A DNA stretch of 64,000 bases from Rhizopus arrhizus (Eukaryota; Mucoromycota; Mucoromycetes; Mucorales; Rhizopodaceae): assembly GCA_024220505.1 (NCBI GenBank), contig JAKZZE010000004.1:1-64000 (forward strand), given 5' to 3'. The position numbers and the translations under genes were made by a program. This document shows positions 8,960-30,379 of the stretch, one piece after another. Within the stretch, counting starts at the first letter, position 1; the number at the start of each line of letters is the position of its first letter. The notes beneath the pieces were generated by a model. The model had not been told where the DNA came from, searched no databases, and saw only the letters and a program-made list of their open reading frames with translations.

Positions 8960-8996
<37 letters not shown>

Positions 8997-10756: not shown

Positions 10757-10814
10757 AACCACAACCATAACCCATGCGGTAGCGCCTTGACCACTACGAA
10801 AAACACCCACACCT
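10757..10814 (-). mobile_element. S0: 5' head fragment of a tRNA-derived SINE
   Basis: 58 bp matching the 5' end of S1-S3 on the minus strand (AGGTGTGGGTGTTTxTCGTAGTGG...). The rest is lost at the R1 junction. It is the outermost and so the oldest preserved member of the stack on the tRNA-Ala gene. Confidence 0.7.
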
Positions 10815-10829
10815 GGGGAAATGGTGTAG
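10815..10829 (+). repeat. 15-bp tRNA-Ala target duplication
   Basis: GGGGAAATGGTGTAG, identical to nt 1-15 of the tRNA-Ala gene at 30307. It separates S0 from the 3' end of LINE1. Confidence 0.9.
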
Positions 10830-11093
10830 ACGAAAATTTTTATTAATATATATAAGGAGTATATTGACAAGCGATAAATATCATGATAGTCATACTCAAG
10901 AAACAAAAGAGAAGAGACAAGAAACAAAAAACACTCGCAGAGCACACAAGAGCGAAAAAAAGGAAGGAGAAAAGGCCAATGGAAGCGCTAACTACTGAGC
11001 AACTCGTCAACACCATGGACTCCTCCGCATCGTGCACTAGAATGGTTTGGCAGTGGGAGGTAGAAGCCAGAGGGTGGATCAGAGCGCTTGTCA

Positions 11094-14000
11094 TTATGGA
11101 ACAGCAGCAGCAGAGGACTTGTCAATCCAGACTTGACCTGGAACAGATGATGAGTTGTACTCGATGTCAGGATGACAGATCTTGTCAAAGTGACAGAGGA
11201 TCTGACAAAGAGCGGACCAGAAAGGCGGACACCGAGCAGAAGCAGAGACAGGAAGCAAGTTCAAGACATAATCTATGTGGTGACCCACATAGTCAGGCGG
11301 CGGAACAGGCAAGCAGCACCAGAGAGCAGAAGGAACCAAGGTACAGACCATAAGGTGCGAGCGAGAAGTATCGCCAAGACCACAAGAACAGGGAGCAGGC
11401 TTGCCTGGGATCCAACCCATGCGCCATCTGATGAGACGAGACCGGTCAGCACGGGAGGCAGGCAAGTACAGGATGGGATCCACCCGGAGAACAGGGCGAC
11501 AAGCGCGGATCAGAACCTGGGGGGTGGATTGTAAGAAGCTATGGAACTGGTCTTGACGATACCTTCGCAACCAAGAAGCAAGACGGGAAGATGAAGAGAC
11601 ATCTGAAGGGCAATCGAGGACGATACGCCGCTTACGGAGTCGAGACAGAAGAGACACTGGCACAGACTGAGACAGCAAAGACAAGAGACAGTCATCGGGT
11701 AGACCCTCAGAACGACGGCAGAACTTTAGCACCAGAGTGTCAGCACGGAAGGTCATCGAAGGCAGGTTGCAGATATGACGAAGTACAACAGTTGAGGCCG
11801 TTCGATGACCACCGACAAGCATTCGTAAGCATCGGTCTTGCGCACGATTGAGTTCGTCATAGTCCTTTTTTGTAAGCTGAGCAATGGCTAGGCCATACTC
11901 AAGCTTAGGACGTATGAACGCAGCGAACAGACGAGAAGAGAGCAGCAGAGTAAAGCCTTGACGGTTAAGACCCATTGAGTGAAGCTGAGCCATAGCCGCC
12001 AAGGTACTTGAAGAGCGATGTTTTATCATGGCAGAGACAGAGATACCCTTACCATCAAAGGGCACACCAAGATAAGTAAACTCCTCAACAGAGGGAAGGT
12101 CTTGATCATAAAGAGACATTGGAACATACCGACTTGATGTAGCAGTAGGTGCATTAAGGACGGCACACTTTGGTGGACTCCACTTGTAACCAAGAGTCAA
12201 GGAGTGGATCTGCGCTAGGTCCAGCATATGCCGAACTTCGCTAGCAGACCCAACCAGCGCCACATCATCCGCATACAACAGACTGTTGATGGGTGTGGGC
12301 GACAGAGACGAGGAAGACAAAGCAGCAGTACCAACCAAAGGACCAAAGGGAAGACCAGAAGGAGACCAGAGCACCAGAACCAGGAGGACCAGAAGGAGAC
12401 ACCGATAGCACCGAGGTGGTTGTTGCAGAAGCAGCAGAACGAAGCAGAGCTGGTAATGTGTTGACATAGATCGAGTACAGGTGAGGACTCAAGACAGAGC
12501 CCTGAAGGACACCTGTACTCGGCACAAACGGATCAGAGACATTGTTCTGCAACAACACAGACACCGAGACATCATCAAACATGTTGGCCAACAAGGACAC
12601 CAAGGACAGAGGAGCAGAAGAGGCGAGCATCGATTGCCATATGATACGACGATCGACTGTATCATAGGCTGACTTGATGTCCAGGAAAGCGACCACAGGA
12701 TAATGATTGTGTCGGCGTCGGTAAGAGTGCATCAGATCATGAAGACAGAGAGCTTGATCCAATGCACTACGCTGGTGACGGAAACCACCTTGAACTACAT
12801 CGAGCGGAGGAGAGACATCTTCAACAAAGGGAAAGAGACACATCTCAAAGAGCTTGCGGACGATGGAGGTCAAGGAGATTGGACGATAGTTCCCTGGCGA
12901 GGTAGGATCACCCTTTTTGTGGATGGGGACCACCTGTGCTTGACGCCAGAGAGAAGGGGTATATGACCACTGGTAGCAGATACTGAAAAGCAAAGAGAGC
13001 AGTGGGTCCAGAACAGACTTGATGGGGAGGAGCATCTCCGTACGCAAGTGGTCAGGACCAGGAGCCTTACGCAGAGGGAGACGTCGCATCAGTGAACCCA
13101 CACTGTCAGCAGAGAACGAGGGCATACCAGGGTCTTGACTATCGAGGTCAAAAGGCACCATACCAGAGACAGAGGGCAGAGGGTCAGGACGCCTTGACGG
13201 AAGACCGTCACCAGAGTAGACCGAGGCAAGGTGTTGACGCATCGCGTTCGCACCTGTAGCAGGGCCGTCAGGATAAGTAAACCCAACCTGTCGACGTCGT
13301 CGGTTCCGAATCACCTTCACCTTCGACATCGCACGAGCAAGTTCGCCACGGGCCAGAGAGTCACAGAAAGCACGCCAAGAGAGACGTTTGGCAGACTTGA
13401 GAGCACTACGGAAACGGGCTTGAGCAACCTGATGTCGATCCCACCACAAGGCCTTGTCGATGCCAATGGCTCGACGCCACTTGCGGTAATGGTGTTCACG
13501 AACATCGGCGAGTTCTTGCAAGTGCGCATTCCAGAATGGCTTCCATTGGGAAGGTCGAGAAGAGCGAGAGCCAACCGACTTGTCGAGTGCACTATAGATC
13601 GCCTCATTCAAAGTGTCATTGAGAGCGTCTATAGGCGGAGCAGCAGAAGGAGGACTTGACTTTAGAGCTTTGAGCTGATCAACCAATGGAGAGGCCAAGG
13701 ACTGGAATGTGGCCACGTACAGACTACAGACATCAGGTTCCTTCAACCGAGAGAGGTTCCATAGCCGACGGGCAGAAGAAGAAGCAGAAGAGAGAACGGG
13801 CTGCGATGGATAACCGTCAGGGACTGCATAGTCAAAGGACAAGGACAACAGTTTGTGGTCAGAGCCAAGAGAGAGATCACTGTAGACTTGCATCCGAGGG
13901 GACCTAAGGACAGAGGTCATGTTGGTCAAGAAGTAGTCGATCATACTTTGCTTGACTTGACCACCACGAAAGGACAAGAAGGTAGGCACCCCAGGAGCGA

Positions 14001-14661
14001 GAGTCGAGTTCAGAACAGAGAGACCATGTTCTTCACACCAGCGAAGCAGCACCGAACCTCGAGCATTGGCAACGGAATCACCCGTTAGTGCACCAAGACG
14101 CGCGTTCAGATCACCACAGATGATCGTGTCGTCTGTCAAGGGCAACGAAACCAACACAGAAGAGACCTCGTCGTTGGACAAGGAAGGGGGCAAATACAGG
14201 CAGATGAGACGCAAGGAGCGACCCAACCGCAGACCCAGAGCATACTTGGTATGAACCGGGAACTGTACCACAGCCATCGGACACCGAGGAGACACCAGAG
14301 CAGAGACACCTTGAGAGCCACGATAGCTGTTGATCACAGGAGAGCCATACAGGTTGAACTGGGTCCAAGAGGTACGGATCCTGTGGGGCGGAAGCAACCA
14401 GGTTTCGGTGATAAAGACCAAGGAAAACGACTGGCAGTGACGAAGAAGATCCTCGGCTGTGGATTCTTGAAGCCCATTGGCATTCCACAAGCCGATTGTA
14501 AGCGGTATAGATGATGATGACGATGGTAAAGGAGAGGATGGACCATGGGAGCCATGAGAACCAAGAGAGACCAAAGGAGAGGAAGGAGTTGACTGATCTG
14601 GAACCATACCAGATGTAGAGACCGAGGATGCATTATAACGACAAGTATTACTACCCATCAT
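11094..14661 (-). pseudogene. LINE1 ORF2: APE/reverse transcriptase, one frameshift
   Basis: Frame A (12265-14661) holds the apurinic-endonuclease domain and most of the reverse transcriptase; frame B (11094-12467) holds the YADD box and C-terminus. Compared with LINE2, there is one extra base near 12357, in the stretch corresponding to ALVSDGLPFGPLVG of the intact copies, which puts the YADD motif out of frame. Otherwise it is collinear with the intact copies. The ATG at 14661 overlaps the ORF1 stop as TAATG. Confidence 0.9.
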
Positions 14662-15668
14662 TATAATGATCCAAAGCTTGAACGAGAGGCAGGACGGTGA
14701 TGCTCATAGTCATCAAGAGCCATGTCTTCGGCCATATCATCGTAATGGCGGGTAGTCTTGGGTCTATCTTCCTTAGCAGACAGAACTTCAGATACTGTCT
14801 CATCAGAGACAAGGGCTTGCGCCAACAAGTAACGGGAGACAGAGACAGCAACAGGATAGCGCAAGCGCTCTAAAGCCTTGCGAGAGCGGTCGTCATTGAT
14901 GAGCGAGATGGCATGGCTACGCTCTTCAGCAGAAACAGAGTCGAACTTGGGGTCGGCAAGGTTAGCAGGATCGAGTGGATCAAAGGTATCCAAGGTGGGG
15001 ACCTTGGCCTTTTCCAACAAGGACAGAAGAGCAGGCTTGTACTGCAGATGTACGAGCAGACCGACAACAGAGTGAGCAGGATAGCACACATCCAAGATGC
15101 GCCAGCTATCCACACCAAGACGAGAGAGACGACGACGAGCTTCAGTGTAGGTCATCCTACGAGAGCGAGGTATGTAAACATACTCGAAGCCTTGTTCACC
15201 AGACACAGGCTGGAAACCACGAGCAGCGGCAGCACGACGACGGAGTTTGTTCTTTGCAGAACGAGAAACAACAGTAGCCCAAGAAGAGGCAGCAGTACCC
15301 AAGGAGGGCGAAGAGACGGTCTCTTTAGCACCATTTTGAGGAGCAGGAGAAGAAGCAGCGGCATTTGAAATTGGGGTGCTTGTAGGGACCCCGGCAGATT
15401 GTGCGGCCAGTTGGGCACGCAGGGAAGCGATCTCATTGGCTTGAGACTGATTTGTTTCGGCAAGGCGAGCGTTCTCACCTCGCAAAGTTTCGAGCTCTAG
15501 CTTGAGCTGCTCTAAGGCAGAGAGACGAGCAGTGACAGCTTCTAGTGCGTGACTGAGACTTTGGACTGTGACTTCTGGGTCGGACGAATTGGGTCCGGCG
15601 GCGGCATTCAGGATTTTAGATCCTCTTGTATTTCTTGTTGATGACATTTGGATGCAAACTTTCAGCAA
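14661..15668 (-). CDS. LINE1 ORF1 protein (coiled coil, 335 aa)
   Basis: 335 aa, no Gag-type CCHC. Residues about 30-95 have coiled-coil character (VTARLSALEQLKLELETLRG and following heptads); a Ser/Ala/Pro-rich linker follows, then a basic stretch near NKLRRRAAAARG and a conserved globular half with PRSRRMTYTEARRRLSRLG. By analogy with LINE ORF1 proteins it should bind element RNA and form the RNP, but no RRM could be recognised by eye. The first ATG is used; MSSTRN eight codons in is an alternative. The stop overlaps the ORF2 start. Confidence 0.85.
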   Translation of the reverse strand: MLKVCIQMSSTRNTRGSKILNAAAGPNSSDPEVTVQSLSHALEAVTARLSALEQLKLELETLRGENARLAETNQSQANEIASLRAQLAAQSAGVPTSTPISNAAASSPAPQNGAKETVSSPSLGTAASSWATVVSRSAKNKLRRRAAAARGFQPVSGEQGFEYVYIPRSRRMTYTEARRRLSRLGVDSWRILDVCYPAHSVVGLLVHLQYKPALLSLLEKAKVPTLDTFDPLDPANLADPKFDSVSAEERSHAISLINDDRSRKALERLRYPVAVSVSRYLLAQALVSDETVSEVLSAKEDRPKTTRHYDDMAEDMALDDYEHHRPASRSSFGSL

Positions 15669-15789
15669 CGATTAAGCAACAAGTATGTAAGATATCGAGA
15701 TAAGAGTTGAACCAAATAAAAGTATAGATCCAAAGGAATCGATTGATGTAAAAATTGTTGATGGATGGATAGATTTGACAGAGATATCG

Positions 15790-17469
15790 CACTGCAAATA
15801 ATCGTGCAAACTCTGCACACTGTTAATTTTTAGCAATATGCTTTTCTGTTTAACGATGCCAAAAGCTGTGATTGAATGGGTATTTATGCCGACGTCAATA
15901 TCGGCACCCTTTAAGGACCTAAATGTCTGTCAATATATTCTGCGTCTCTGTATGGTGCCGATATTAACGAAAATGATGATCCATAGCTCTAAGTAGATTT
16001 ATACAGACCCAATTGTCATTCTGCGAAGGCGTCTCTCTTGTTAGCTGCTTTACATAGTCTATTCTACGTTATAAATAATTTGGCAACCAATGATACTTTT
16101 TAAATTATTACTTTATTTGTCTTTTTACTCTTTATAAACCATTCATATTGCCTTATATACTTTTTTATGAACCACTCATATTGCTTTATATACTTCTTTA
16201 CCGACCATTCATATTGAAATAAATATTGCTTTATATATACAAAAAAATAGGGATTTTGTTTATAAAAAATACTTTTTTTTATTTAAATAAAATAATAATA
16301 ATACATAGTATTTCTTTGCTTGTAGCGTTTTAACTGTGTACTTGACTTACCTAATGTCACCAGAATAGCAGCATCTAATCTAAAAATACATCAATTAATC
16401 TCGTGGAACTCAAAAAGAAAAAAAAAAAAGCCAAGCTCAAGGATTCAGAGACACAAGGATTCAAGGATTCAAGGATTCAAGGACTTGGGTAATTAAAGCA
16501 AAAGAAGGAAATACATCAGTACTTAAGAACTAAAGTAAAAACCATGATAGAAACAGAAAGAGGCCAAAGTAGAGCAGCACTCATCTATAATGATTATTAG
16601 CTATCGTGTATGTATCGTAAAAGCAATAGTACCTTTCTTTAGATAGACAAGGGGAAGAAAACTTGCTGAGCTTTTACCAATAAGTAAAAAAAAGGAAGCA
16701 GTACGTATCTATAATAATTATTAGCTATGATGGATATGTAATAAAAGTAATAGTACCTTTAGATGGGCTAAGAGAAAAAAACTAGCTAAGCGTATACTCA
16801 CAAGTAAAAAAAGCAGCAGGCATCTATAATAATTATTAGCTATGATGGATATGTAATAAAAGTAATAGTACCTTGCTTTAGATGGACCATGAAAAAAAAA
16901 AGAAAAGAAAAAAAGATACCAGTCAAGCCTATACCAACAAGTAAAAGAAGAAGCAATAATAATCCTGGGAAAAAGACTTTATAAAGGCCATTTAGACTAT
17001 AAAGAAAGAAATCAATACAATATTACTAAAGTACAAGTACCGTTAGAACAGGAATACAATTTATATAATATTAAGAACTTACCTTTTATAAAAAGAGAAG
17101 AAAAAAAAAAGAAAAAAAAAAAAAAGAGAAGTGCTTTTTTGTAGCCTTATTTTACCAATGTTACACTTATTCACTGTCTATCCATATTAGAAAACAAAAA
17201 CAGTTGCTTTTCATGTAGTCTGTATTTAATGGTATCCCAAAAGATAACTTATACATTGCTTGAGTAAGTTTTATTACTTGCGTGCAATATCTTTAACGTG
17301 GAGGATATTATTTTTTCTTTTCTTTTTTTTTTTTTTTTTTTTTTCTCCCTTGTTTTGTTTCATGGAATACACTAAATGTCAAAGGTACAAAAGATAAAAT
17401 AGAATGCTCAAGTATTGATCATATGTAAGTTTATAAAAAAAAAATAATAACAACCAAGTCTAATGTCGG

Positions 17470-17509
<40 letters not shown>

Positions 17510-18534
17510 TTAGGAATTCCTAATGGGACACATTCGGATGACGAACATGAACCTCATGAGCAAAGTTGTTCTTTCCAACACGATAAAACTATAAGAATGT
17601 CAAACTTATATTACTGCTTGTTGTTGAAAAGTTTTTTTTGGTAAAGGAAGTTGGCAATGTTAACATCTCTAATGGCTAATGGCTAATGGCAAATTACACC
17701 CATGTGCAAACATAAAGTAAGTAATGAACTAGTATAAGCTTAAAAACATATATTCTTTTATATTATTTGTCATAAAAAAAATAATAAAGCACTTTATTTA
17801 CTTGAAAAACAAAAAAAAACTGTGCATGTATCTATTAATTATAACTGCCTTGTAACAAGATGTTAACAAAGCCTCTTTTTTTTTTATTCTTTTTAGAATA
17901 TACACATAATCTTTTGTTACAATGTAAAAGCATTTGTATTTTTATAAAACATGTTTACTGTTAGGTTATTGTTTTCATTTGAATAAGTAACATTTTATTG
18001 CTATGCCCTTTTTTTTTTTTCACTAGGTCTTTTTTTTTAACTTTGTCTTTTTTTTTTACTTTTAATTTTCCAGCTTCTTTTTTTTCCCAAACGCAACTAT
18101 TTTGTTAAGTTCTGTTACACGCTTCAAATGAACTAAGCTAAAGATCATAGACTGCCTTCCTAATATGTATTCTTTTGATCAAAATAATCACAATGTGTTT
18201 TTGTTTTCCGCATTTTGCCCTCAAAAATAAAAAAAAGAAGCTATCGGTCTTTCAACGATAGAGGAGAACAAGCTTTCCAAAAAAAGATCATCTGTAAAAA
18301 AAAAAGTCATTTTTTTAAAACGTGAATAACTTTATGAATATTTACCTTACAATGAAAAAAATAACATTACTTAATTTCTTTATTTTTTTCGCATCTAAAT
18401 CTTTTTTCATATTTCGAAAATGACCAATACAGCAAGATATAATGTTTTTTTAAAAAAAAACTTTAAAATCTGTGGACCTATGACTGTCACCGATATCAGA
18501 ATTCTACGTCAAAGGTGCAACATTATTTGCAGTG
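15790..18534. mobile_element. R2: complete non-autonomous CACTG-ended DNA transposon
   Basis: 2745 bp, from CACTGCAAATAATCGTGCAAA to its inverse end ATTATTTGCAGTG. It is flanked by the 3-bp duplication TCG (15787-15789 and 18535-18537). The uninterrupted site GATATCGGCTT is seen in LINE2 (near 24119) and LINE3 (near 29130). CACT-type ends with a 3-bp duplication are characteristic of the CACTA/EnSpm superfamily. Inside are the roughly 110-bp subterminal repeats (16580-16930) and many homopolymer runs; no gene was found. Its non-coding arms match those around the two-gene element R3. Confidence 0.85.
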
Positions 18535-18590
18535 TCGGCTTTCCAAAAACGAGTCGAATTTACCTTTTTAACCAAAAGCGAAAGAAAAGT

Positions 18591-18605
18591 TCTTCGGTAG
18601 TATAG
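18591..18605 (+). repeat. Decayed 15-bp tRNA-Ala target copy
   Basis: TCTTCGGTAGTATAG occupies exactly the 15 positions expected for GGGGAAATGGTGTAG between the 5' end of LINE1 and the 3' end of S1. Only the right half still resembles the target, so the assignment rests mainly on position. Confidence 0.6.
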
Positions 18606-19148
18606 ACGAAAGTTTTTTTTTATTTTTTATTGGTCAAATATGCAGGCGACATATGTGTCATTAATTGCTTGACCACAGAACGAACTGGGAAAGCATACAA
18701 ACTGTTAAGGGGGAAGGGAAGGGAGGGTAAGCAGGGCAATTATTTGGCTGAAGCGACAGACGAAGACTTGGAACAGAGAGAGAGAGACATGCTTCATTAA
18801 GCCCGAGGTGGGCATCCTTGCAACGCTGATAATGCTGCTCACCAAACAGCACACAACACAGACCGACCAGAACAGCAGCGGCGTCAAAACCCAGGGAGGA
18901 AAGAGAGAACAGAAAGGAATGCGAACGGGGACACCGAAAGGGAGGGAAGGTGGACCAGATACCCAGCTGGCACGCAACGCAACACACAGGCGGGACACAC
19001 CGAAAGCCAGAGACAACGCACGTTAAGGAAGTCATGTGACCGTGCGTGGAAGAGACGGTGCGAGGAAGGCAGGATTCGAACCTGCATGTCCAAAGGACAC
19101 TCAACCCATACGGTAGCGCCTTAACCACTACGACAAACACCCACACCT
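18606..19148 (-). mobile_element. S1: tRNA-derived SINE (543 bp)
   Basis: On the minus strand it starts AGGTGTGGGTGTTTGTCGTAGTGG, with a tRNA-like head: an A-box-like TCGTAGTGGTTAAGG, a variable-arm-like hairpin with a TGTCC stem, and a perfect B box GGTTCGAATCC near 19077. A non-tRNA body follows, ending CCAATAAAAAATA...CTTTCGT, the LINE-like 3' end. The long variable arm suggests a class II (Ser/Leu-like) tRNA origin. A 161-codon minus-strand ORF across it is incidental. Confidence 0.85.
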
Positions 19149-19431: not shown

Positions 19432-22400
19432 TTAGGGAGTAGTAGCAGCAGCGGACTTGTCAATCCAGACTTGACCTGGAGCAGATGATGAGTGGTACTC
19501 GATGTCAGGATGACAGATCTTGTCAAAGTGACAGAGGATCTGACAAAGAGCGGACCAGAAAGGCGGACACCGAGCAGAAGCAGAGACAGGAAGCAAGTTC
19601 AAGACATAATCTATGTGGTGACCCACATAGTCAGGCGGCGGACCAGGCAAGCAGCACCAGAGAGCAGAAGGAACCAAGGTACAGACCATAAGGTGCGAGC
19701 GAGAAGTATCGCCAAGACCACAAGAACAGGGAGCAGGCTTGCCTGGGATCCAACCCATGCGCCATCTGATGAGACGAGACCGGTCAGCACGGGAGGCAGG
19801 CAAGTAGAGGATGGGATCCACCCGAAGAACAGGACGACAAGCGCGGATCAGAACCTGGGGGGTGGACTGTAGGAAGCTTTGAAATTGATCTTGACGATAC
19901 CTTCGCAGCCAAGAAGCAAGACGAGAAGTCGAATGAGGGGCATCCGAAGGGTAGTCGAGTACGATTTGCCGCTTACGGAGCTGTGTCAATAGTGAAGAAG
20001 AGACAGAGGAAGACAGCAGAGACAAGAGACAGTCATCAGGAAGACCCTCGAAACGCAGACAAAACTTGAGGACCAAGGTATCAGCTCTAAAGGTCATCGA
20101 CGGCAAATTGGTAATATGACGGAGAACCACAGTTGAGGCAGTTCGATGGCCACCAACAAGCATTCTTAAACACCGGTCTTGAGCACGGTTGAGCTCTTCA
20201 CCGTCCTTTCTTGTAAGTCGAGCAATAGCAAGGCCATACTCGAGCTTAGGACGGATGAAGGCAGCAAAGAGACGAGAAGAAAGAAGCAGAGTAAAGCCTT
20301 GACGGTTAAGACCCATAGAGTGAAGCTGAGCCATAGCCGCCAAGGTACTTGAAGAGCGATGCTTTATCATGGCAGACACCGAGATACCTTTACCATCAAA
20401 AGGGACACCAAGATAAGTAAACTCCTCAGTTGTAGGAAGATCTTGACCGTACAACGACATTGACACAAAGCGACTTGATGTAGCAGTAGGTGCATTTAGG
20501 ACGGCACACTTTGGTGGACTCCACTTGTAACCAAGAGTCAGAGAATGGATCTGCGCTAGGTCCAGCATATGCCGAACTTCGCTAGCAGACCCAACCAGCG
20601 CCACATCATCCGCATACAACAGGCTGTTGATGGGTGTGGGCGACAGGGACGAGGAAGACAAAGCAGCAGTACCAACCAAAGGACCAAAGGGAAGACCATC
20701 GGAGACCAGAGCACCAGGACCAGGAGGACCAGAAGGAGACACCGATAACACCGAGGTGGTTGTTGCAGAAGCAGCAGAACGAAGCAGAGCTGGCAATGTG
20801 TTGACATAGATAGAGTACAGGTGAGGACTCAAGACAGAGCCCTGAAGGACACCTGTACTCGGCACAAACGGATCAGAGACATTGTTCTGCAACAACACAG
20901 ACACCGAGACATCATCAAACATGTTGGCCAACAAGGACACCAAGGACAGAGGAGCAGAAGAGGCGAGCATCGATTGCCATATGATACGACGATCGACTGT
21001 ATCATAGGCTGACTTGATGTCCAGGAAAGCGACCACAGGATAATGATTGTGTCGGCGTCGGTAAGAGTGCATCAGATCATGAAGACAGAGAGCTTGATCC
21101 AATGCACTACGCTGGTGACGGAAACCACCTTGAACTACATCGAGCGGAGGAGAGACATCTTCAACAAAGGGAAAGAGACACATCTCAAAGAGCTTGCGGA
21201 CGATGGAGGTCAAGGAGATTGGACGATAGTTCCCTGGCGAGGTAGGATCACCCTTTTTGTGGATGGGGACCACCTGAGCTTGACGCCAGAGAGAAGGGGT
21301 ATATGACCACTGGTAGCAGATACTGAAAAGCAAGGAGAGCAGTGGGGCCAGAACAGACTTGATGGGGAGGAGCATCTCCGTACGCAAGTGGTCAGGACCA
21401 GGAGCCTTACGCAGAGGGAGACGTCGCATCAGTGAACCCACACTGTCAGCAGAGAACGAGGGCATACCAGGGTCTTGACTATCGAGGTCAAAAGGCACCA
21501 TACCAGAGACAGAGGGCAGAGGGTCAGGACGCCTTGACGGAAGACCGTCACCAGAGTAGACCGAGGCAAGGTGTTGACGCATCGCGTTCGCACCTGCAGC
21601 AGGGCCGTCAGGATGAGTAAATCCAACCTGTTGACGTCGTCGGTTCCGAATCACCTTCACCTTCGACATCGCACGAGCAAGTTCGCCACGGGCCAGAGAG
21701 TCACAGAAAGCACGCCAAGAGAGACGTTTGGCAGACTTGAGAGCACTACGGAAACGGGCTTGAGCAACCTGATGTCGATCCCACCACAAGGCCTTGTCAA
21801 TGCCAATGGCTCGACGCCACTTGCGGTAATGGTGTTCACGAACATCGGCGAGTTCTTGCAAGTGCGCATTCCAGAATGGCTTCCATTGGGAAGGTCGAGA
21901 AGAGCGAGAGCCAACCGACTTGTCGAGTGCACTATAGATCGCCTCATTCAGAGTGTCATTGAGAGCGTCTATAGGCGGAGCAGCAGAAGGAGGACTTGAC
22001 TTCAGAGCTTTGAGCTGATCAACCAATGGAGAGACCAAGGACTGGAATGTGGCCACGTACAGACTACAGACATCAGGTTCCTTCAACCGAGAGAGGTTCC
22101 ATAGCCGACGGGCAGAAGAAGAAGAAGAAGAGAGAACGGGCTGCGATGGATAACCATCAGGGACTGCATAGTCAAAGGACAAGGACAACAGTTTGTGGTC
22201 AGAGCCAAGAGAGAGATCACTGTAGACTTGCATCCGAGGGGACCTAAGGACAGAGGTCATGTTGGTCAAGAAGTAGTCGATCATACTTTGCTTGACTTGA
22301 CCACCACGAAAGGACAAGAAGGTAGGTACCCCAGGAGCGAGGGTCGAGTTCAGAACAGAGAGACCATGTTCTTCACACCAGCGAAGCAGCACCGAACCTC

Positions 22401-22995
22401 GAGTATTGGCAACGGAATCACCCGTTAGTGCACCAAGACGCGCGTTCAGATCACCACAGATGATCGTGTCGTCTGTCAAGGGCAACGAAACCAACACAGA
22501 AGAGACCTCGTCGTTGGACAAGGAAGGGGGCAAATACAGGCAGATGAGACGCAAGGAGCGACCCAACCGCAGACCCAGAGCATACTTGGTATGAACCGGG
22601 AACTGTACCACAGCCATCGGACACCGAGGAGACACCAGAGCAGAAACACCTTGAGAGCCACGATAGCTGTTGATCACAGGAGAGCCATACAGGTTGAACT
22701 GGGTCCAAGAGGTACGGATCCTGTGAGGCGGAAGCAACCAGGTTTCAGTGATGAAAACCAAAGAGAACGACTGGCAGTGACGGAGGAGATCCTCGGCTGT
22801 GGATTCTTGAAGCCCATTGGCATTCCACAAGCCGATGGTGAGCGGAATAGAAGATGATGAAGAGGATGATGATGGACCATGGGAGCCATGAGAACCAGAG
22901 GAAACCAAAGGAGAGGAAGGTGTTGACTGATCTGGGACCATACCAGATGTAGAGACCGAGGATGCATTATAACGACAAGTATTACTACTCATCAT
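19432..22995 (-). CDS. LINE2 ORF2: APE endonuclease-reverse transcriptase (1187 aa)
   Basis: Intact. Residues about 50-275 form an apurinic-endonuclease-like domain (IGLWNANGLQES, FITETWLLPP, IICGDLNARLG, SMIDYFLTN, GSDHKLLSLS), which would nick the target. Residues about 530-850 form the reverse transcriptase (RKAPGPDHLRTEM, VPIHKKGDPTSPGNYRPISL, VQGGFRHQRSALDQ, VAFLDIKSAYDTVDR, STGVLQGSVLSP, LLYADD near 794). Near residues 1080-1100 a CCHC-type knuckle, CSCGLGDTSRSHLMVC, closes the protein. No RNase H domain was seen. The ATG lies in the TAATG overlap with ORF1, which suggests termination-reinitiation. The target specificity inferred from the flanks would reside mainly in the endonuclease. 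Confidence 0.93.
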   Translation of the reverse strand: MMSSNTCRYNASSVSTSGMVPDQSTPSSPLVSSGSHGSHGPSSSSSSSSIPLTIGLWNANGLQESTAEDLLRHCQSFSLVFITETWLLPPHRIRTSWTQFNLYGSPVINSYRGSQGVSALVSPRCPMAVVQFPVHTKYALGLRLGRSLRLICLYLPPSLSNDEVSSVLVSLPLTDDTIICGDLNARLGALTGDSVANTRGSVLLRWCEEHGLSVLNSTLAPGVPTFLSFRGGQVKQSMIDYFLTNMTSVLRSPRMQVYSDLSLGSDHKLLSLSFDYAVPDGYPSQPVLSSSSSSARRLWNLSRLKEPDVCSLYVATFQSLVSPLVDQLKALKSSPPSAAPPIDALNDTLNEAIYSALDKSVGSRSSRPSQWKPFWNAHLQELADVREHHYRKWRRAIGIDKALWWDRHQVAQARFRSALKSAKRLSWRAFCDSLARGELARAMSKVKVIRNRRRQQVGFTHPDGPAAGANAMRQHLASVYSGDGLPSRRPDPLPSVSGMVPFDLDSQDPGMPSFSADSVGSLMRRLPLRKAPGPDHLRTEMLLPIKSVLAPLLSLLFSICYQWSYTPSLWRQAQVVPIHKKGDPTSPGNYRPISLTSIVRKLFEMCLFPFVEDVSPPLDVVQGGFRHQRSALDQALCLHDLMHSYRRRHNHYPVVAFLDIKSAYDTVDRRIIWQSMLASSAPLSLVSLLANMFDDVSVSVLLQNNVSDPFVPSTGVLQGSVLSPHLYSIYVNTLPALLRSAASATTTSVLSVSPSGPPGPGALVSDGLPFGPLVGTAALSSSSLSPTPINSLLYADDVALVGSASEVRHMLDLAQIHSLTLGYKWSPPKCAVLNAPTATSSRFVSMSLYGQDLPTTEEFTYLGVPFDGKGISVSAMIKHRSSSTLAAMAQLHSMGLNRQGFTLLLSSRLFAAFIRPKLEYGLAIARLTRKDGEELNRAQDRCLRMLVGGHRTASTVVLRHITNLPSMTFRADTLVLKFCLRFEGLPDDCLLSLLSSSVSSSLLTQLRKRQIVLDYPSDAPHSTSRLASWLRRYRQDQFQSFLQSTPQVLIRACRPVLRVDPILYLPASRADRSRLIRWRMGWIPGKPAPCSCGLGDTSRSHLMVCTLVPSALWCCLPGPPPDYVGHHIDYVLNLLPVSASARCPPFWSALCQILCHFDKICHPDIEYHSSSAPGQVWIDKSAAATTP

Positions 22996-24002
22996 TATAA
23001 TGATCCAAAGCTTGAACGAGAGGCAGGACGGTGATGCTCATAGTCATCAAGAGCCATGTCTTCAGCCATATCATCGTAATGACGAGCAGTCTTGGGTCGA
23101 TCTTCCTTGACAGACAGAACTTCAGATACTGTCTCATCAGAGACAAGGGCTTGCGCCAACAAGTAACGAGAGACAGAGACAGCAACAGGATAGCGCAAGC
23201 GCTCTAAAGCCTTGCGAGAACGATCATCATTAATCAGCGAGATGGCATGGCTACGCTCTTCAGCAGAAACAGAGTCAAACTTGGGATCGGCCAGGTTAGC
23301 AGGATCAAGAGGGTCGAACGTATCCAAGGTGGGGATCTTGGCCTTTTCCAACAAGGACAGAAGAGCAGGCTTGTACTGAAGATGTACCAGAAGACCGACA
23401 ACAGAGTGGGCAGGATAGCAAACATCCAAGATGCGCCAGCTATCCACACCAAGACGAGAGAGACGACGACGAGCTTCAGTGTAGGTCATCCTACGAGAGC
23501 GAGGTATATAGACATACTCGAAGCCTTGTTCACCAGAAACGGGCTGGAAACCACGAGCAGCGGCAGCACGACGACGAAGCTTGTTCTTGGTGGAACGAGA
23601 AACAACAGTAGCCCAAGAAGAGGCAGCAGTACCCAAGGTGGGCGAAGAAACGGTATCTTTAGCACCGTTAGGAGCGGCAGCAGAAGAAAGAGCGGCATTT
23701 GAATTGGGGGTGCTTGTAGGGGCCCCGGCAGTTTGTGCGGCCAGTTGGGCCCGCAAAGAAGCAATCTCATTGGCTTGAGATTGGTTAGTTTCGGCAAGGC
23801 GAGCATTCTCACCTCGTAAATTTTCAAGCTCTAGCTTAAGCTGTTCTAGAGCAGAGAGACGAGCAGTGACCGCTTCAAGTGCGTGACTGAGATTCTGAAC
23901 TGTGTCTTCGAGGTCGGACGAATTGGGTCCGGCGGCGGCATTCAGGATTTTAGATCCTCTTGTATTTCTTGTTGAAGACATTTGGATGCAAACTTTCAGC
24001 AA
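22995..24002 (-). CDS. LINE2 ORF1 protein (coiled coil, 335 aa)
   Basis: 335 aa, the same layout and length as in LINE1: N-terminal heptads (residues about 30-95), a variable Ser/Ala/Pro linker (the main site of difference between the three copies), a basic cluster and a conserved C-terminal half. The stop TAA shares its last A with the ORF2 ATG at 22995. Confidence 0.85.
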   Translation of the reverse strand: MLKVCIQMSSTRNTRGSKILNAAAGPNSSDLEDTVQNLSHALEAVTARLSALEQLKLELENLRGENARLAETNQSQANEIASLRAQLAAQTAGAPTSTPNSNAALSSAAAPNGAKDTVSSPTLGTAASSWATVVSRSTKNKLRRRAAAARGFQPVSGEQGFEYVYIPRSRRMTYTEARRRLSRLGVDSWRILDVCYPAHSVVGLLVHLQYKPALLSLLEKAKIPTLDTFDPLDPANLADPKFDSVSAEERSHAISLINDDRSRKALERLRYPVAVSVSRYLLAQALVSDETVSEVLSVKEDRPKTARHYDDMAEDMALDDYEHHRPASRSSFGSL

Positions 24003-24176
24003 CGATTAAGCAACAAGTATGAAAGATATCGAGATATGAGTTGAACCAAATAAAAGTATAGATCAAAAGGAGTCGATTGATGTAAAAATTGTTGATGGAT
24101 GGATAGATTTGACAGAGATATCGGCTTGCAAAAAAAGAGTCAAGTTTACCTTTTGAACCAAAAGCGAAAGAAAAGT

Positions 24177-24192
24177 GGGGGAAATGGTGTAG
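24177..24192 (+). repeat. 16-bp tRNA-Ala target duplication
   Basis: GGGGGAAATGGTGTAG between the 5' end of LINE2 and the 3' end of LINE3. Confidence 0.9.
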
Positions 24193-24455
24193 ACGAAGAT
24201 TTTTATTAATATATATAACGAGTATATTGACAAGCGATAAATATCATAATAGTCATACTCAAGAACGAAAAGAAAAGACAAGAAGCAAAAAACACTCGCT
24301 GAGCACACAAGAGCGAAAAAAAGGAAAGAGAAAAAGGCCAATGGATACGCTAACTACTGAGCAACTCGTCAACACCATGGTCTCCTCCGCATCGTGCACT
24401 AAAATGGTTTGGCAGTGGGAGGTAGAAGCCAGAGGGTGGATCAGAGCGCTTGTCA

Positions 24456-27400
24456 TCATGGAACAGCAGCAGCAGAGGACTTGTCAATCCAGACTTGACC
24501 TGGAGCAGAAGAAGAATTGTACTCGATGTCAGGATGACAGATCTTGTCAAAGTGACAGAGGATCTGACAAAGAGCGGACCAAAAGGGCGGACACCGAGCA
24601 GAAGCAGAGACAGGCAGCAAGTTCAAGACATAGTCGATGTGGTGACCCATATAATCAGACGGCGGAACAGGTAAGCAGCACCAAAGAGCAGAAGGAACCA
24701 AGGTACAGACCATGAGATGCGAGCGAGAAGTATCGCCAAGACCACAGGAACAGGGAGCAGGCTTGCCTGGGATCCAACCCATGCGCCATCTGATGAGACG
24801 AGAACGGTCAGCACGGGAGGCAGGCAAGTACAGGATGGGATCCACCCTAAGAACAGGACGACAAGCGCGAATCAGAACCTGGGGGGTGGACTGTAAGAAG
24901 CTATGAAACTGGTCTTGACGATACCTTCGCAACCAAGAAGCAAGACGAGAAGAAGAGATAGGAGCATCCGAAGGGTAATCAAGAACGATTTGCCGCTTAC
25001 GGAGCTGTGTCAGCAATGACGACGAAACAGAAGAAGACAGCAGAGACAAGAGACAGTCATCAGGAAGACCTTCGAAACGCAGACAGAACTTCAGAACCAA
25101 GGTATCAGCCCTAAATGTCATTGATGGCAGATTGGTGATATGGCGGAGGACCACAGTCGAAGCAGTTCGGTGACCACCGACAAGCATTCGAAGACACCGG
25201 TCTTGGGCACGGTTGAGCTCTTCACCGTCCTTTCTTGTAAGTCGAGCAATAGCAAGGCCATACTCGAGCTTAGGACGGATGAAGGCAGCAAAGAGACGAG
25301 AAGAAAGAAGCAGAGTAAAGCCTTGACGGTTGAGACCCATCGAATGGAGCTGAGCCATAGCCGCCAAGGTACTTGAAGAGCGATGCTTGACCATAGCAGT
25401 GACAGAAATACCCTTACCATCAAAGGGCACACCAAGATAAGTAAACTCTTCAACAGTAGGAAGATCTTGACCATATAGAGACATTTGAACATACCGACTT
25501 GAAGTGGCAGTAGGTGCATTAAGAACAGCACACTTTGGTGGACTCCACTTGTAACCAAGAGTCAGAGAATGGGTCTGCGCTAGGTCCAGCATATGCCGAA
25601 CTTCGCTAGCAGACCCAACCAGCGCCACATCATCCGCATACAACAGACTGTTGATGGGTGTGGGCGACAGAGACGAGGAAGACAAAGCAGCAGTACCAAC
25701 CAAAGGACCAAAGGGAAGACCATCAGCGACCAGAGCACCAGGACCAGGAGGACCAGAAGGAGACACCGATAACACCGAGGTGGTTGTTGCAGAAGCAGCA
25801 GAACGAAGCAGAGCTGGCAATGTGTTGACATAGATAGAGTACAGGTGAGGACTCAAGACAGAGCCCTGAAGGACACCTGTACTCGGCACAAACGGATCAG
25901 AGACATTGTTCTGCAACAACACAGACACCGAGACATCATCAAACATGTTGGCCAACAAGGACACCAAGGACAGAGGAGCAGAAGAGGCGAGCATCGATTG
26001 CCATATGATACGACGATCGACTGTATCATAGGCTGACTTGATGTCCAGAAAAGCGACCACAGGATAATGATTGTGTCGGCGTCGGTAAGAGTGCATTAGA
26101 TCATGAAGACAGAGGGCTTGATCCAATGCACTACGCTGGTGACGAAAACCACCTTGAACTACATCGAGCGGAGGAGAGACATCTTCAACAGAGGGAAAGA
26201 GACACATCTCAAAGAGCTTGCGGACGATGGAGGTCAAGGAGATTGGACGATAGTTCCCTGGCGAGGTAGGATCACCCTTTTTGTGGATGGGGACCACCTG
26301 TGCTTGACGCCAGAGAGAAGGGGTATACGACCACTGGTAGCAGATACTGAAGAGCAAAGAGAGCAGTGGGGCCAGGACAGACTTGATGGGGAGGAGCATC
26401 TCCGTACGCAAGTGGTCAGGACCAGGAGCCTTACGCAGAGGGAGACGTCGCATCAGTGAACCCACACTGTCAGCAGTGAACGAGGGCATACCAGGGTCTT
26501 GACTATCGAGGTCAAAAGGCACCATACCAGAGACAGAGGGCAGAGGGTCAGGACGCCTTGACGGAAGACCGTCACCAGAGTAGACCGAGGCAAGGTGTTG
26601 ACGCATCGCGTTCGCACCTGCAGCAGGGCCGTCAGGATGGGTAAATCCAACCTGTTGACGTCGTCGGTTCCGAATCACCTTCACCTTCGACATCGCACGA
26701 GCAAGTTCGCCACGGGCCAGGGAGTCACAGAAAGCACGCCAAGAGAGACGTTTAGCAGACTTGAGAGCACTACGGAAACGGGCTTGAGCAACCTGATGTC
26801 GATCCCACCACAAGGCCTTGTCGATGCCAGTGGCACGACGCCACTTGCGATAGTGGTGTTCACGAACATCGGCGAGTTCTTGCAAGTGCGCATTCCAGAA
26901 TGGCTTCCATTGGGAAGGTCGAGAAGAGCGAGAGCCAACCGACTTGTCGAGTGCATTATAGATCGCCTCGTTCAGAGTGTCGTTGAGAGCGTCTATAGGC
27001 GGAGCAGCAGAAGGAGGACTTGACTTCAGAGACTTGAGCTGATCAACCAATGGAGAGACCAAGGACTGGAATGTGGCCACGTACAGACTACAGACATCAG
27101 GTTCCTTCAACCGAGAGAGGTTCCATAGCCGACGGGCAGAAGAAGAAGAGAGAACGGGCTGCGATGGATAACCATCAGGGACTGCATAGTCAAAGGACAA
27201 GGACAACAGTTTGTGGTCAGAGCCAAGAGAGAGATCACTGTAGACTTGCATCCGAGGGGACCGAAGAGCAGAGGTCGTGTTGGTCAAGAAGTAGTCGATC
27301 ATACTTTGCTTGACTTGACCACCACGAAAGGACAAGAAGGTAGGCACCCCAGGAGCGAGAGTCGAGTTCAGAACAGAGAGAGCATGTTCTTCACACCAGC

Positions 27401-28007
27401 GAAGCAGCACCGAACCTCGAGCATTGGCAACGGAATCACCCGTTAGTGCACCAAGACGCGCGTTCAGATCACCACAGATGATCGTGTCGTCTGTCAAGGG
27501 CAACGAAACCAACACAGAAGAGACCTCGTCGTTGGACAAGGAAGGGGGCAAATACAGGCAGATGAGACGCAAGGAGCGACCCAACCGCAGACCTAGAGCA
27601 TACTTGGTATGAACCGGAAACTGTACCACAGCCATCGGACACCGAGGAGACACCAGAGCAGAGACACCTTGAGAGCCACGATAGCTGTTGATCACAGGAG
27701 AGCCATACAGATTGAACTGGGTCCAAGAGGTACGGATCCTGTGAGGCGGAAGCAACCAGGTTTCGGTGATGAACACCAGAGAGAACGACTGGCAGTGACG
27801 AAGTAGATCCTCGGCTGTGGATTCTTGAAGCCCATTGGCATTCCACAAGCCGATTGTGAGCGGGATAGAAGATGATGAGAATGAAGGAGAGGATGGACCA
27901 TGGGAGCCATGAGAACCAGAGGAAACCAAAGGAGAGGAAGGGACTGGGACCATACCAGTAGTAGAGACCGAGGATGCATTATAACGACAAGTATTACTAC
28001 TCATCAT
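24456..28007 (-). CDS. LINE3 ORF2: APE endonuclease-reverse transcriptase (1183 aa)
   Basis: Intact and collinear with LINE2 ORF2 (same endonuclease, RT and CCHC motifs). The four-residue length difference is the net of small indels in Ser-rich stretches, including near residues 20-45 and around SSSSARRLWNLSRL. Most differences between copies look synonymous or conservative, which suggests the family evolved under coding constraint before these copies inserted. The start is in the TAATG overlap at 28007. Confidence 0.93.
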   Translation of the reverse strand: MMSSNTCRYNASSVSTTGMVPVPSSPLVSSGSHGSHGPSSPSFSSSSIPLTIGLWNANGLQESTAEDLLRHCQSFSLVFITETWLLPPHRIRTSWTQFNLYGSPVINSYRGSQGVSALVSPRCPMAVVQFPVHTKYALGLRLGRSLRLICLYLPPSLSNDEVSSVLVSLPLTDDTIICGDLNARLGALTGDSVANARGSVLLRWCEEHALSVLNSTLAPGVPTFLSFRGGQVKQSMIDYFLTNTTSALRSPRMQVYSDLSLGSDHKLLSLSFDYAVPDGYPSQPVLSSSSARRLWNLSRLKEPDVCSLYVATFQSLVSPLVDQLKSLKSSPPSAAPPIDALNDTLNEAIYNALDKSVGSRSSRPSQWKPFWNAHLQELADVREHHYRKWRRATGIDKALWWDRHQVAQARFRSALKSAKRLSWRAFCDSLARGELARAMSKVKVIRNRRRQQVGFTHPDGPAAGANAMRQHLASVYSGDGLPSRRPDPLPSVSGMVPFDLDSQDPGMPSFTADSVGSLMRRLPLRKAPGPDHLRTEMLLPIKSVLAPLLSLLFSICYQWSYTPSLWRQAQVVPIHKKGDPTSPGNYRPISLTSIVRKLFEMCLFPSVEDVSPPLDVVQGGFRHQRSALDQALCLHDLMHSYRRRHNHYPVVAFLDIKSAYDTVDRRIIWQSMLASSAPLSLVSLLANMFDDVSVSVLLQNNVSDPFVPSTGVLQGSVLSPHLYSIYVNTLPALLRSAASATTTSVLSVSPSGPPGPGALVADGLPFGPLVGTAALSSSSLSPTPINSLLYADDVALVGSASEVRHMLDLAQTHSLTLGYKWSPPKCAVLNAPTATSSRYVQMSLYGQDLPTVEEFTYLGVPFDGKGISVTAMVKHRSSSTLAAMAQLHSMGLNRQGFTLLLSSRLFAAFIRPKLEYGLAIARLTRKDGEELNRAQDRCLRMLVGGHRTASTVVLRHITNLPSMTFRADTLVLKFCLRFEGLPDDCLLSLLSSSVSSSLLTQLRKRQIVLDYPSDAPISSSRLASWLRRYRQDQFHSFLQSTPQVLIRACRPVLRVDPILYLPASRADRSRLIRWRMGWIPGKPAPCSCGLGDTSRSHLMVCTLVPSALWCCLPVPPSDYMGHHIDYVLNLLPVSASARCPPFWSALCQILCHFDKICHPDIEYNSSSAPGQVWIDKSSAAAVP

Positions 28008-29014
28008 TATAATGATCCAAAGCTTGAACGAGAGGCAGGACGGTGATGCTCATAGTCATCAAGAGCCATGTCTTCATCCATATCATCGTAATGGCGGACA
28101 GTCTTGGGTCGATCTTGTTTGGTAGACAGAACTTCGGATACTGTCTCATCTGAGACCAAGGCTTGTGCTAATAGGTAGCGAGAGACGGAGACAGCAACAG
28201 GATAGCGCAAGCGCTCTAAAGCCTTGCGAGAGCGGTCATCGTTGATCAGCGAGATAGCATGACTACGCTCTTCAGCAGAAACAGAGTCAAACTTGGGATC
28301 AGCAAGGTTTGCAGGGTCAAGAGGATCAAAGGTATCCAAGGTGGGAATCTTGGCCTTTTCCAACAAGGACAGAAGAGCGGGCTTGTACTGAAGGTGTACA
28401 AGAAGACCGACAACAGAGTGAGCAGGATAGCACACATCTAAGATGCGCCAGCTATCCACACCAAGGCGAGAGAGACGACGACGAGCTTCAGTGTAGGTCA
28501 TCCTACGAGAGCGAGGTATGTAAACATACTCAAAGCCTTGTTCACCAGACACAGGCTGGAATCCACGAGCAGCGGCAGCACGGCGACGGAGTTTGTTCTT
28601 GGCAGAACGAGAGACAACGGTAGCCCAAGACGAGGCAGCAGTACCCAAGGAGGGCGAAGGAACGGACTCTTTAGCACCATTAAAAGGAGCAGCAGAAGAA
28701 AGAGCGGCATTTGAATTGGGGGTGCTTGTAGGGGCCCCGGCAGTTTGTGCGGCCAGTTGGGCCCGCAAAGAAGCAATCTCATTGGCTTGAGATTGGTTAG
28801 TTTCGGCAAGGCGAGCATTCTCACCTCGTAAATTTTCAAGCTCTAGCTTAAGCTGTTCTAGAGCAGAGAGACGAGCAGTAACGGCTTCTAGTGCGTGACT
28901 TAGATTCTGAACAGTGACTTCGAGGTCGGACGAATTGGGTCCGGCGGCGGCATTCAGGATTTTAGATCCTCTAGTATTTCTTGTTGTTGACATTTGGATG
29001 CAAACTTTCAGCAA
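28007..29014 (-). CDS. LINE3 ORF1 protein (coiled coil, 335 aa)
   Basis: 335 aa. The N-terminal half is closer to LINE2 than to LINE1 (shared LELENLRG and QTAGAPTSTPNSNAALSSA segments). Layout as in LINE1 and LINE2: coiled coil, variable linker, basic cluster, conserved C-terminal half and an acidic-basic tail ending SRSSFGSL. Confidence 0.85.
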   Translation of the reverse strand: MLKVCIQMSTTRNTRGSKILNAAAGPNSSDLEVTVQNLSHALEAVTARLSALEQLKLELENLRGENARLAETNQSQANEIASLRAQLAAQTAGAPTSTPNSNAALSSAAPFNGAKESVPSPSLGTAASSWATVVSRSAKNKLRRRAAAARGFQPVSGEQGFEYVYIPRSRRMTYTEARRRLSRLGVDSWRILDVCYPAHSVVGLLVHLQYKPALLSLLEKAKIPTLDTFDPLDPANLADPKFDSVSAEERSHAISLINDDRSRKALERLRYPVAVSVSRYLLAQALVSDETVSEVLSTKQDRPKTVRHYDDMDEDMALDDYEHHRPASRSSFGSL

Positions 29015-29188
29015 CGATTAAACAACAAGTAGCAAAGATATCAGAATAAGAGTTGAACCAAATAAAAGTATAGATCAAAAGGAGTCGGTTGATGTAAAAA
29101 TTGTTGACGGATGGATAGATTTGACAGAGATATCGGCTTTCCAAAAAAGAGTCGAATTTACCTTTTTAACCAAAAGCGAAAGAAAAGT

Positions 29189-29213
29189 GGGGGAAATGGG
29201 GGAAATGGTGTAG
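29189..29213 (+). repeat. tRNA-Ala target duplication with partial repeat
   Basis: GGGGGAAAT followed directly by GGGGGAAATGGTGTAG, between the 5' end of LINE3 and the 3' end of S2. The partial doubling may be a second-strand synthesis slip or a failed insertion. Confidence 0.85.
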
Positions 29214-29753
29214 ACGAAACTTTTTATTTTTTTATTGGTCATATATGCAGGCGACATATGTGTCATTAATTGCTTGACCACAGAACGAACTGGGAAAGCA
29301 TACAAACTGTAATGGGGGAAGGGAAGGGAGGGTAAGCAGGGCAATTATTTGGCTGAAGCGACAGACGAAGACTTGGGACAGAGAGAGAGAGACATGCTTC
29401 ATTAAGCCCGAGGTGGGCATCCTTGCAACGCTGATAATGCTGCTCACCAAACAGCACACAACGCAGACCGACCAGAACAGCAGCGGCGTCAAAACCCAGG
29501 GAGGAAAGAGAGAACAGAAAGGGATGCCAACGGGGACACCGAAAGGGAGGGAAGGTGGACCAGATACCCAGCTGGCACGCAACGCAACACACAGGCGGGA
29601 CACACCGAAAGCCAGAGACGACGCACGTTAAGGAAGTCATGTGACCGTGCGTGGAAGAGACGGTGCGAGGAAGGCAGGATTCGAACCTGCATGTCCAGAG
29701 GACACTCAACCCATACGGTAGCGCCTTAACCACTACGACAAACACCCACACCT
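29214..29753 (-). mobile_element. S2: tRNA-derived SINE (540 bp)
   Basis: Nearly identical to S3 and close to S1. The head at the high-coordinate side has a perfect B box (GGTTCGAATCC on the minus strand). The 3' end ...AAAAAGTTTCGT adjoins the target copy at 29213. Open reading frames across the body are not conserved as protein-like sequence. Confidence 0.88.
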
Positions 29754-29768
29754 GGGGAAATGGTGTAG
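29754..29768 (+). repeat. 15-bp tRNA-Ala target duplication
   Basis: GGGGAAATGGTGTAG between the 5' end of S2 and the 3' end of S3. Confidence 0.92.
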
Positions 29769-30306
29769 ACGAAACTTTTTATTTTTTATTGGTCAAATAT
29801 GCAGGCGACATATGTGTCATTAATTGCTTGACCACAGAACGAACTGGGAAAGCATACAAACTGTTAAGGGGGAAGGGAAGGGAGGGTAAGCAGGGCAATT
29901 ATTTTGGCTGAAGCGACAGACGAAGACTTGGAACAGAGAGAGAGACATGCTTCATTAAGCCCGGGGTGGGCATCCTTGCAACGCTGATAATGCTGCTCAC
30001 CAAACAGCACACAACGCAGACCGACCAGAACAGCAGCGGCGTCAAAACCCAGGGAGGAAAGAGAGAACAGAAAGGAATACCAACGGGGACACCGAAAGGG
30101 AGGGAAGGTGGACCAGATACCCAGCTGGCACGCAACGCAACACACAGGCGGGACACACCGAAAGCCAGAAACGACGCACGTTAAGGAAGTCATGTGACCG
30201 TGCGTGGAAGAGACGGTGCGAGGAAGGCAGGATTCGAACCTGCATGTCCAGAGGACACTCAACCCATACGGTAGCGCCTTAACCACTACGACAAACACCC
30301 ACACCT
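29769..30306 (-). mobile_element. S3: tRNA-derived SINE (538 bp), adjacent to tRNA-Ala
   Basis: Its 5' end directly abuts nucleotide 1 of the intact tRNA-Ala gene, so the SINE and the tRNA face away from each other. On the stacking model it is the most recent insertion. Structure as in S2, with B box GGTTCGAATCC (complement of 30230-30240). Confidence 0.88.
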
Positions 30307-30379
30307 GGGGAAATGGTGTAGTGGCTATCACATCCGCTTTGCATGCGGAAGGCCCCGGGTTCAAACCCCGGTTTCTCCA
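30307..30379 (+). tRNA. tRNA-Ala (anticodon TGC)
   Basis: 73 nt without CCA. The acceptor stem GGGGAAA pairs with TTTCTCC and includes G3-U70, the alanine identity pair. The anticodon arm TCCGC-TTTGCAT-GCGGA gives TGC. The T arm is CCGGG-TTCAAAC-CCCGG. Internal promoters: A box TGGTGTAGTGG and B box GGTTCAAACCC. No intron. No T-run terminator follows immediately; T-runs appear some 60 nt downstream. The gene is the target of the LINE/SINE stack: its nt 1-15 are repeated at each junction to the left. Its upstream DNA is now SINE S3, so expression would depend on the internal boxes. Confidence 0.95.

Follow-up and report, generated by a model that had tools for sequence, protein, structure and literature searches.

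The 64,000-nucleotide (nt) stretch of Rhizopus arrhizus DNA analysed here, called the window below (contig JAKZZE010000004.1, positions 1 to 64,000), holds in one row three long interspersed nuclear elements (LINEs), three short interspersed nuclear elements (SINEs) and, at the left end, a SINE head fragment, with a tRNA-Ala(TGC) gene at the right end of the row. Comparison of the junctions here and elsewhere in the genome makes it very probable that a site-specific LINE of the L1 type, together with SINEs that share its 3' tail, inserts in the A box of tRNA genes and duplicates nt 1 to 14 of the gene. The sequences show that the 3' junction follows nt 14 of the tRNA, that nt 1 to 14 are present twice and that the element 5' end falls on nt 1 or no more than a few bases from it; beside the last element the tRNA gene is uninterrupted. 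All elements of the stack are antisense to tRNA-Ala, with the element 3' end adjoining a tRNA copy. The initial annotation of the window had described the row, its orientation and the intact gene (30307 to 30379); element mapping confirmed these observations, and the interpretation placed on them is partly supported.

Exact matches to GGGGAAATGGTGTAG occur six times in the window, all on the plus strand (10815, 19150, 24178, 29199, 29754 and 30307); five are element junctions, and the sixth is the start of the intact tRNA-Ala gene. With up to three mismatches allowed there are seven sites, against 1.0 expected and with none of 100 shuffles reaching seven, although the seventh overlaps the copy at 29199. 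A tRNA-Ala copy had been claimed at every junction, one of them decayed. The five exact copies bear this out in part, but decay of the fourth copy is rejected, since 18591 to 18604 reads TCTTCGGTAGTATA, which is nt 1 to 14 of tRNA-Asp(GTC).

The same placement recurs throughout the assembly from which the window comes (one species, 50.26 Mb in 41 contigs), where copies were located by a marker from the LINE 3' untranslated region and by a SINE marker, each with up to three mismatches. The LINE marker lies at 55 places, 51 of them with a readable 3' end, and 49 of these ends are preceded by an exact copy of tRNA nt 1 to 14, which goes against the refuting outcome named in the initial annotation, copies in unrelated sequence. 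The tRNA types are Pro (22), Ala (8), Gly-TCC (7), Asp (6) and His (3), with a single end each at Gly-GCC, Val and a tRNA without an isotype call. For the SINE marker, found at 36 places, all 35 readable 3' ends are at tRNA nt 1 to 14 (33 exact, one with one mismatch, and one exact ahead of a duplicated tail, judged by eye). The 3' flanks of seven LINEs and two SINEs were read from stretches of only 131 to 161 bases. Isotypes were called by ARAGORN, with 63 of 2878 tRNA candidates scored and the Val(AAC) anticodon read by eye. Instead of tRNA-Ala only, as had been assumed, at least seven types are targets: Pro-AGG, Ala-TGC, Asp, Gly-TCC, His, Gly-GCC and Val.

When both junctions are readable, the same tRNA type stands on both sides of 34 of 35 LINEs and 18 of 19 SINEs, and the two exceptions are neighbours in the window (LINE1, Ala/Asp; SINE-a, Asp/Ala). 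The ends of 29 of the 35 LINEs are at full-copy spacing, with the interior partly read, and in all 29 the two sides agree; the other six pairs of ends are separated by 6.5 to 8.3 kb, and in some of these each end may come from a different element. In a Gly-GCC gene there is a clean single LINE insertion that left the gene whole. Seen alone, the 5' end of the last element, which abuts nt 1, resembles insertion just upstream of a tRNA gene, in which case the tRNA-like words at the 3' ends would be element sequence and their likeness a coincidence. Upstream-only insertion is rejected, with a residual chance that we put close to nil, by the finding that the word before the 3' end varies with the tRNA on the opposite side and matches it in those 34 of 35 LINEs.

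The cut had initially been placed between nt 15 and 16, with a duplication of 15 to 16 bp that rebuilds the tRNA. The A box and the rebuilding of a whole gene stand, but the cut is better placed after nt 14 and the duplication is 14 bp long. All five Gly-TCC genes found read ..GTTTA-A-TGG, that is, A15, whereas all 12 Gly-TCC junction copies (7 LINE, 5 SINE) read ..GTTTA-G-ACGAA, and because of this difference the junction G is most readily assigned to the element, which puts the cut after nt 14. A LINE copy outside any tRNA gene (C18:416242) is 195 bp long, 5' truncated and situated between two copies of TGATAACTAATGTA. Its duplication measures 14 nt, or 15 with the G included, at the site TAATGTA/GT (the slash marks the cut here and below), which is one base off the motif at nt 8 to 16 and resembles an A box. 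Since this copy gives an independent 14-nt duplication, the 14-nt stagger looks like a property of the element. With the cut after nt 14, a duplication of 14 bp reaches exactly to nt 1 and leaves the gene whole.

In the mechanism that we propose, the endonuclease would nick the tRNA sense strand between A14 and R15 at a motif of about TRGTNTA/RTGG, the ...TA-3'OH would prime reverse transcription of an RNA ending in ...CGUC, and second-strand cleavage would fall 14 bp away at the first base of the gene. With the second cut at that base, the rebuilt gene would again be a target and elements would stack, and the earlier view that the gene survives and is used repeatedly is supported. At five of 35 LINE 5' junctions there are at least 6 additional bases identical or nearly identical to the beginning of a tRNA. 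These footprints are five bases of the Pro start plus GC at a Gly-TCC target, Gly-TCC nt 1 to 8 at a Pro target, Pro nt 1 to 6 at an Ala target, and two Ala-like footprints at Ala targets, one of them at LINE3 of the window. Footprints of a different tRNA were thus present at three of the 35 junctions, plus one seen from the neighbouring side; a Pro footprint lies ahead of an Asp copy on contig C23. Over 4953 aligned bases there is no difference between C1:2442129, the Gly-TCC copy that has the Pro footprint, and C8:216041, which lies at a Pro gene; this identity fits a recent jump from the Pro locus, in the direction that we infer, by an RNA begun outside the element. The footprints of other tRNAs suggest that the 5' end of the element RNA can lie a few nucleotides beyond the element itself, within the donor tRNA read in antisense, and they let individual jumps be traced from donor type to target. 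AATAAA is close to the 3' end of both LINE3 and SINE-c, and for that reason we would guess that the RNA may continue at its 3' end into the adjoining antisense copy of the tRNA, where it could base-pair with the primer.

Occupancy of the tRNA genes bears on what is recognized. A gene was counted as occupied if a marker element of the same type lies within 60 kb upstream; the gene lists come from exact 18- or 19-mers, which leave out variant genes, and some of the genes listed are known from this word alone. By this measure Ala (3/3) and Pro-AGG (7/7) are full, followed by Gly-TCC (3/5), His (3/5), Asp (6/12), the tRNA without an isotype call (1/2), Val (2/10) and Gly-GCC (1/12). The five types with TRGTNTA/RTGG are occupied in 22 of 32 genes and the three deviating types in 4 of 24 (Fisher test, p = 1.4e-4, with motif classes drawn after seeing the data and genes that are not independent). 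Judged by letters, further genes abut a LINE or SINE end (Asp at C23:2423518, Asp on C39 and His at C8:1275231), and among those read, two Gly-TCC genes, four Asp genes and one His gene have no abutting element end. It could be that polymerase III (Pol III) factors direct the insertion, as they do for TRE5-A, and that the endonuclease itself does not discriminate between sequences. With a single exception the readable targets are tRNA genes, and for TRE5-A the available parts of two papers report a need for the B box and an interaction of the ORF1 protein with TFIIIB (PMC5911963, PMC5006619). Such targeting is nevertheless improbable as the explanation here, since insertion is exact to the nucleotide, the copy outside a tRNA gene lies at a site like an A box and has the same 14-nt duplication, and occupancy differs between the motif classes, with the reservations just given. 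A bolder version of our own reading, which we offer tentatively and consider less likely to be right than wrong, is a parasite that preserves its target: the nick at nt 14/15 and the 14-bp stagger would be matched to the gene start, and element RNA with antisense tRNA at either end would pair with the nicked gene, so that homing combines RNA-DNA complementarity with endonuclease specificity. If this were true, every Pro-AGG and Ala-TGC gene found would be a landing pad for the elements.

Not all of the window stack was formed by insertion on the spot. Positions 10824 to 16781 are 99.6% identical to a stack at tRNA-Asp on contig C14, including the start of a terminal inverted repeat (TIR) transposon at the same place, and 18138 to 19195 are 98.5% identical to that stack, with 950 C14 bases between the two tracts unread. 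The first 260 bases of LINE1 are equally close to a C8 copy (98.5%) and to C14 (98.1%). Recombination or conversion between the Ala and Asp stacks would explain the mismatched flanks of LINE1 and SINE-a, which, as they stand, are probably not two separate insertions at the tRNA-Ala gene, because the Asp copy lies in the tract common to the Asp stack. Stacks at different tRNA genes, here Ala and Asp, would then also be shaped by recombination with each other at a later time. The danger foreseen in the initial annotation, that the stack is a segmental duplication, is real for this tract but does not extend to the stacks in general, which are mainly not tandem copies. Tandem or segmental duplication through unequal crossing-over between copies, in place of serial insertion, could draw on this near identity of much of 10824 to 19195 to C14, with the Asp 14-mer inside, and on an adjacent LINE pair on C40 that differs by only 1.5%. 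It is, however, very unlikely, and simple tandem duplication as the general cause is rejected, because adjacent LINEs are on average about as divergent (6.5%, 9 pairs) as unlinked ones (6.9%, 207 pairs) and as non-adjacent ones within 60 kb (6.2%, 15 pairs). In addition, LINE2 and LINE3 have their nearest relatives in a tree on other contigs, C1 and C8, at Gly and Pro loci, and the same arrangement is found at unlinked tRNA genes of several types. No age gradient along the stacks was evident in terminal branch lengths; the order in a stack need not equal the order of insertion, as insertion at an old junction gives the same topology.

Several points weigh against serial A-box insertion as set out above. 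The markers, with their limit of three mismatches, favour young copies, and the 3' end is lost at four LINE places and one SINE place. Two of the 51 readable LINE ends depart from the pattern, one at a partial Asp copy (C23:2431221) and one, C18:416242, outside any tRNA. The junction G could be a change of the copies and not element sequence. For the junction words GGTTTCTTGGTGTA (tRNA-Val(AAC), anticodon by eye) and GGTCCCGTGGCGTA, A15 was predicted and neither gave a match with GTGG or ATGG; their intact genes continue GTTGG (10 and 2), with G as nt 15. Part of the window stack appears to have come by recombination, and there is the C40 pair with its low divergence. Finally, because occupancy varies between tRNA types, chromatin or Pol III factors may also matter.

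The LINE has two open reading frames (ORFs), ORF1 of 335 aa and, in LINE3, ORF2 of 1183 aa with an apurinic/apyrimidinic endonuclease (APE) domain, a reverse transcriptase (RT) domain and a C-terminal Cys/His motif. ORF2 matches Pfam RVT_1 (4e-25) and Exo_endo_phos_2 (2.3e-11), its best profile match is human L1 ORF2p across APE and RT (1.7e-34), and its nearest solved relatives are human L1 ORF2p and R2. An AlphaFold model, used for fold comparison only (mean predicted local distance difference test score of 73.7, predicted template modeling score of 0.54), gave L1 ORF2p as the top Foldseek hit and the TRAS1 endonuclease as the best endonuclease-only chain. With APE endonuclease and RT in one ORF2, the LINE is of the APE type (L1-like), and the 14-nt duplications and the one 5'-truncated copy are consistent with target-primed reverse transcription. 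Among 115 protein matches, the best is in Rhizopus delemar (89% identity over 90%) and other named ones in Mucor, Phycomyces, Umbelopsis and Cokeromyces. Both ORFs, counted from stop to stop, are open in 20 of 22 complete LINEs read gap-free. The SINE head is tRNA-Leu-like by ARAGORN at a lowered threshold, and Rfam gave no tRNA match in the SINEs of 18500 to 30500. LINE3 ends in AATAAAAATCTTCGT and SINE-c in AATAAAAAGTTTCGT, a shared 3' tail that, with the tRNA-derived head and the same target, points to mobilization of the SINE by the LINE. In the A box of a tRNA-Pro at locus L021 (about 5993 to 6524) there is a member of a second SINE family, 529 nt long, whose tRNA-like head is a different one and whose 3' end is CTTTAACC; the element abutting the Pro gene at C8:221565 belongs to this family. 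A further SINE-like element abuts tRNA-His at locus L046.

Table 1. Elements and tRNA-derived segments of the stack, in window coordinates
Feature	Positions	Strand	Remarks
SINE 5' head	10757-10814	-	Alignment possible from 10769 on; truncated by a CACTG-type TIR transposon whose end is at 10756
tRNA-Ala nt 1-14 copy	10815-10828	+	Next base G, read as element
LINE1, 3' end at left	10829-18590	-	Interrupted by TIR transposon 15790-18534
TIR DNA transposon in LINE1, 2.7 kb	15790-18534		TIR CACTGCAAATAAT; 3-bp duplication TCG
tRNA-Asp nt 1-14 copy	18591-18604	+	The copy first described as decayed
SINE-a, complete	18605-19149	-	Left copy Asp, right copy Ala
tRNA-Ala nt 1-14 copy	19150-19163	+	
LINE2, complete	19164-24177	-	ORF1 22995-24002, ORF2 19432-22995
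tRNA-Ala nt 1-14 copy	24178-24191	+	
LINE3, complete	24192-29188	-	ORF1 28007-29014, ORF2 24456-28007
Extra partial tRNA-start copy at LINE3 5' end	29189-29198	+	Read as donor flank carried along
tRNA-Ala nt 1-14 copy	29199-29212	+	
SINE-b, complete	29213-29753	-	
tRNA-Ala nt 1-14 copy	29754-29767	+	
SINE-c, complete	29768-30306	-	tRNA-like head; 3' end AATAAAAAGTTTCGT(C)
Intact tRNA-Ala(TGC)	30307-30379	+	Putative cut at nt 14/15 (30320/30321)

The window also holds repeats outside the stack (Table 1). A second copy of the DNA transposon with CACTGCAAATAAT TIRs is located at about 8349 to 10756, and we presume that these transposons may belong to the EnSpm/CACTA superfamily; a Transposase_21 ORF lies at 60105 to 61448. 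A 2.2-kb inverted repeat (6148 to 8348 and 32770 to 34994, 93.5% identical) flanks the stack, and several Tc1/mariner-like transposase ORFs and repeats are found at 38373 to 46682 and 54889 to 64000. Elsewhere in the assembly, tRNA-Asp genes have further repeated ends a short way upstream (loci L096 to L099, left flanks of several stacks), and these are possibly long terminal repeats (LTRs) of Ty3-like elements as reported for Rhizopus.

Our results suggest a way for a LINE to enter a tRNA gene almost without damage, since the duplication leaves a whole gene. They also point to tRNA genes that have a transposon as their immediate 5' flank and to an APE endonuclease, of interest for site-directed insertion, that seems to recognize a conserved motif of tRNA promoters. 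A search of titles and abstract beginnings of open-licence PubMed Central (PMC) articles, with Repbase outside its scope, gave no LINE inside fungal tRNA A boxes among the matches listed, and the excerpts of PMC5014426, PMC10886601 and PMC4133162 contain nothing on LINEs inside tRNA genes.

Known elements share single features with this system. Co-localization with tRNA genes is described, in the accessible part of the study, for Ty3-like LTR elements of Rhizopus oryzae, probably a related fungus, but those are LTR elements, and the LINEs are tabulated there without a stated tRNA target (PMC2699053). Several lineages of Dada transposons insert at tRNA nt 8 to 13, inside the A box; these, however, are DNA transposons with short duplications, and the excerpt describes the tRNA genes as disrupted (PMC8869645). 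The dictyostelid elements TRE5, TRE3, NLTR-A and NLTR-B resemble our LINE as APE-type LINEs linked to tRNA genes, TRE5 also in its orientation opposite to the tRNA, but all of them insert outside the mature tRNA, NLTR-A 2 to 6 bp upstream, and the sections consulted describe no duplication of tRNA nt 1 to 14 (PMC5911963, PMC5006619). The insertion found here lies between nt 14 and 15 and not at a set distance outside the gene. The NeSL clade uses a restriction-like endonuclease, in place of which our LINE has an APE domain. NeSL-related non-LTR elements specific for tRNA genes include NeSL-1_TV (tRNA-Pro), LIN15_SM (tRNA-Arg) and LIN25_SM (tRNA-Glu), according to the part seen of PMC4640811.

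The closest precedent, by likeness of mechanism, is the arrays of R1. R1 is an APE-type element. In the available text of PMC2718515, R1 non-LTR retrotransposons in arthropod 28S rRNA genes have a rigid first cut and, in the ancestral type, a 14-bp target duplication, they form tandem arrays with 14-bp copies between the elements, and their transcripts are thought to carry flanking 28S sequence. The 14-bp duplication and the arrays separated by a 14-bp copy are common to R1 and the tRNA LINE. The target differs, with R1 inserting in 28S and the fungal LINE in the A box of several tRNA types, and whereas the duplication made by R1 would not rebuild the 28S gene, that of the fungal LINE restores a whole tRNA gene.

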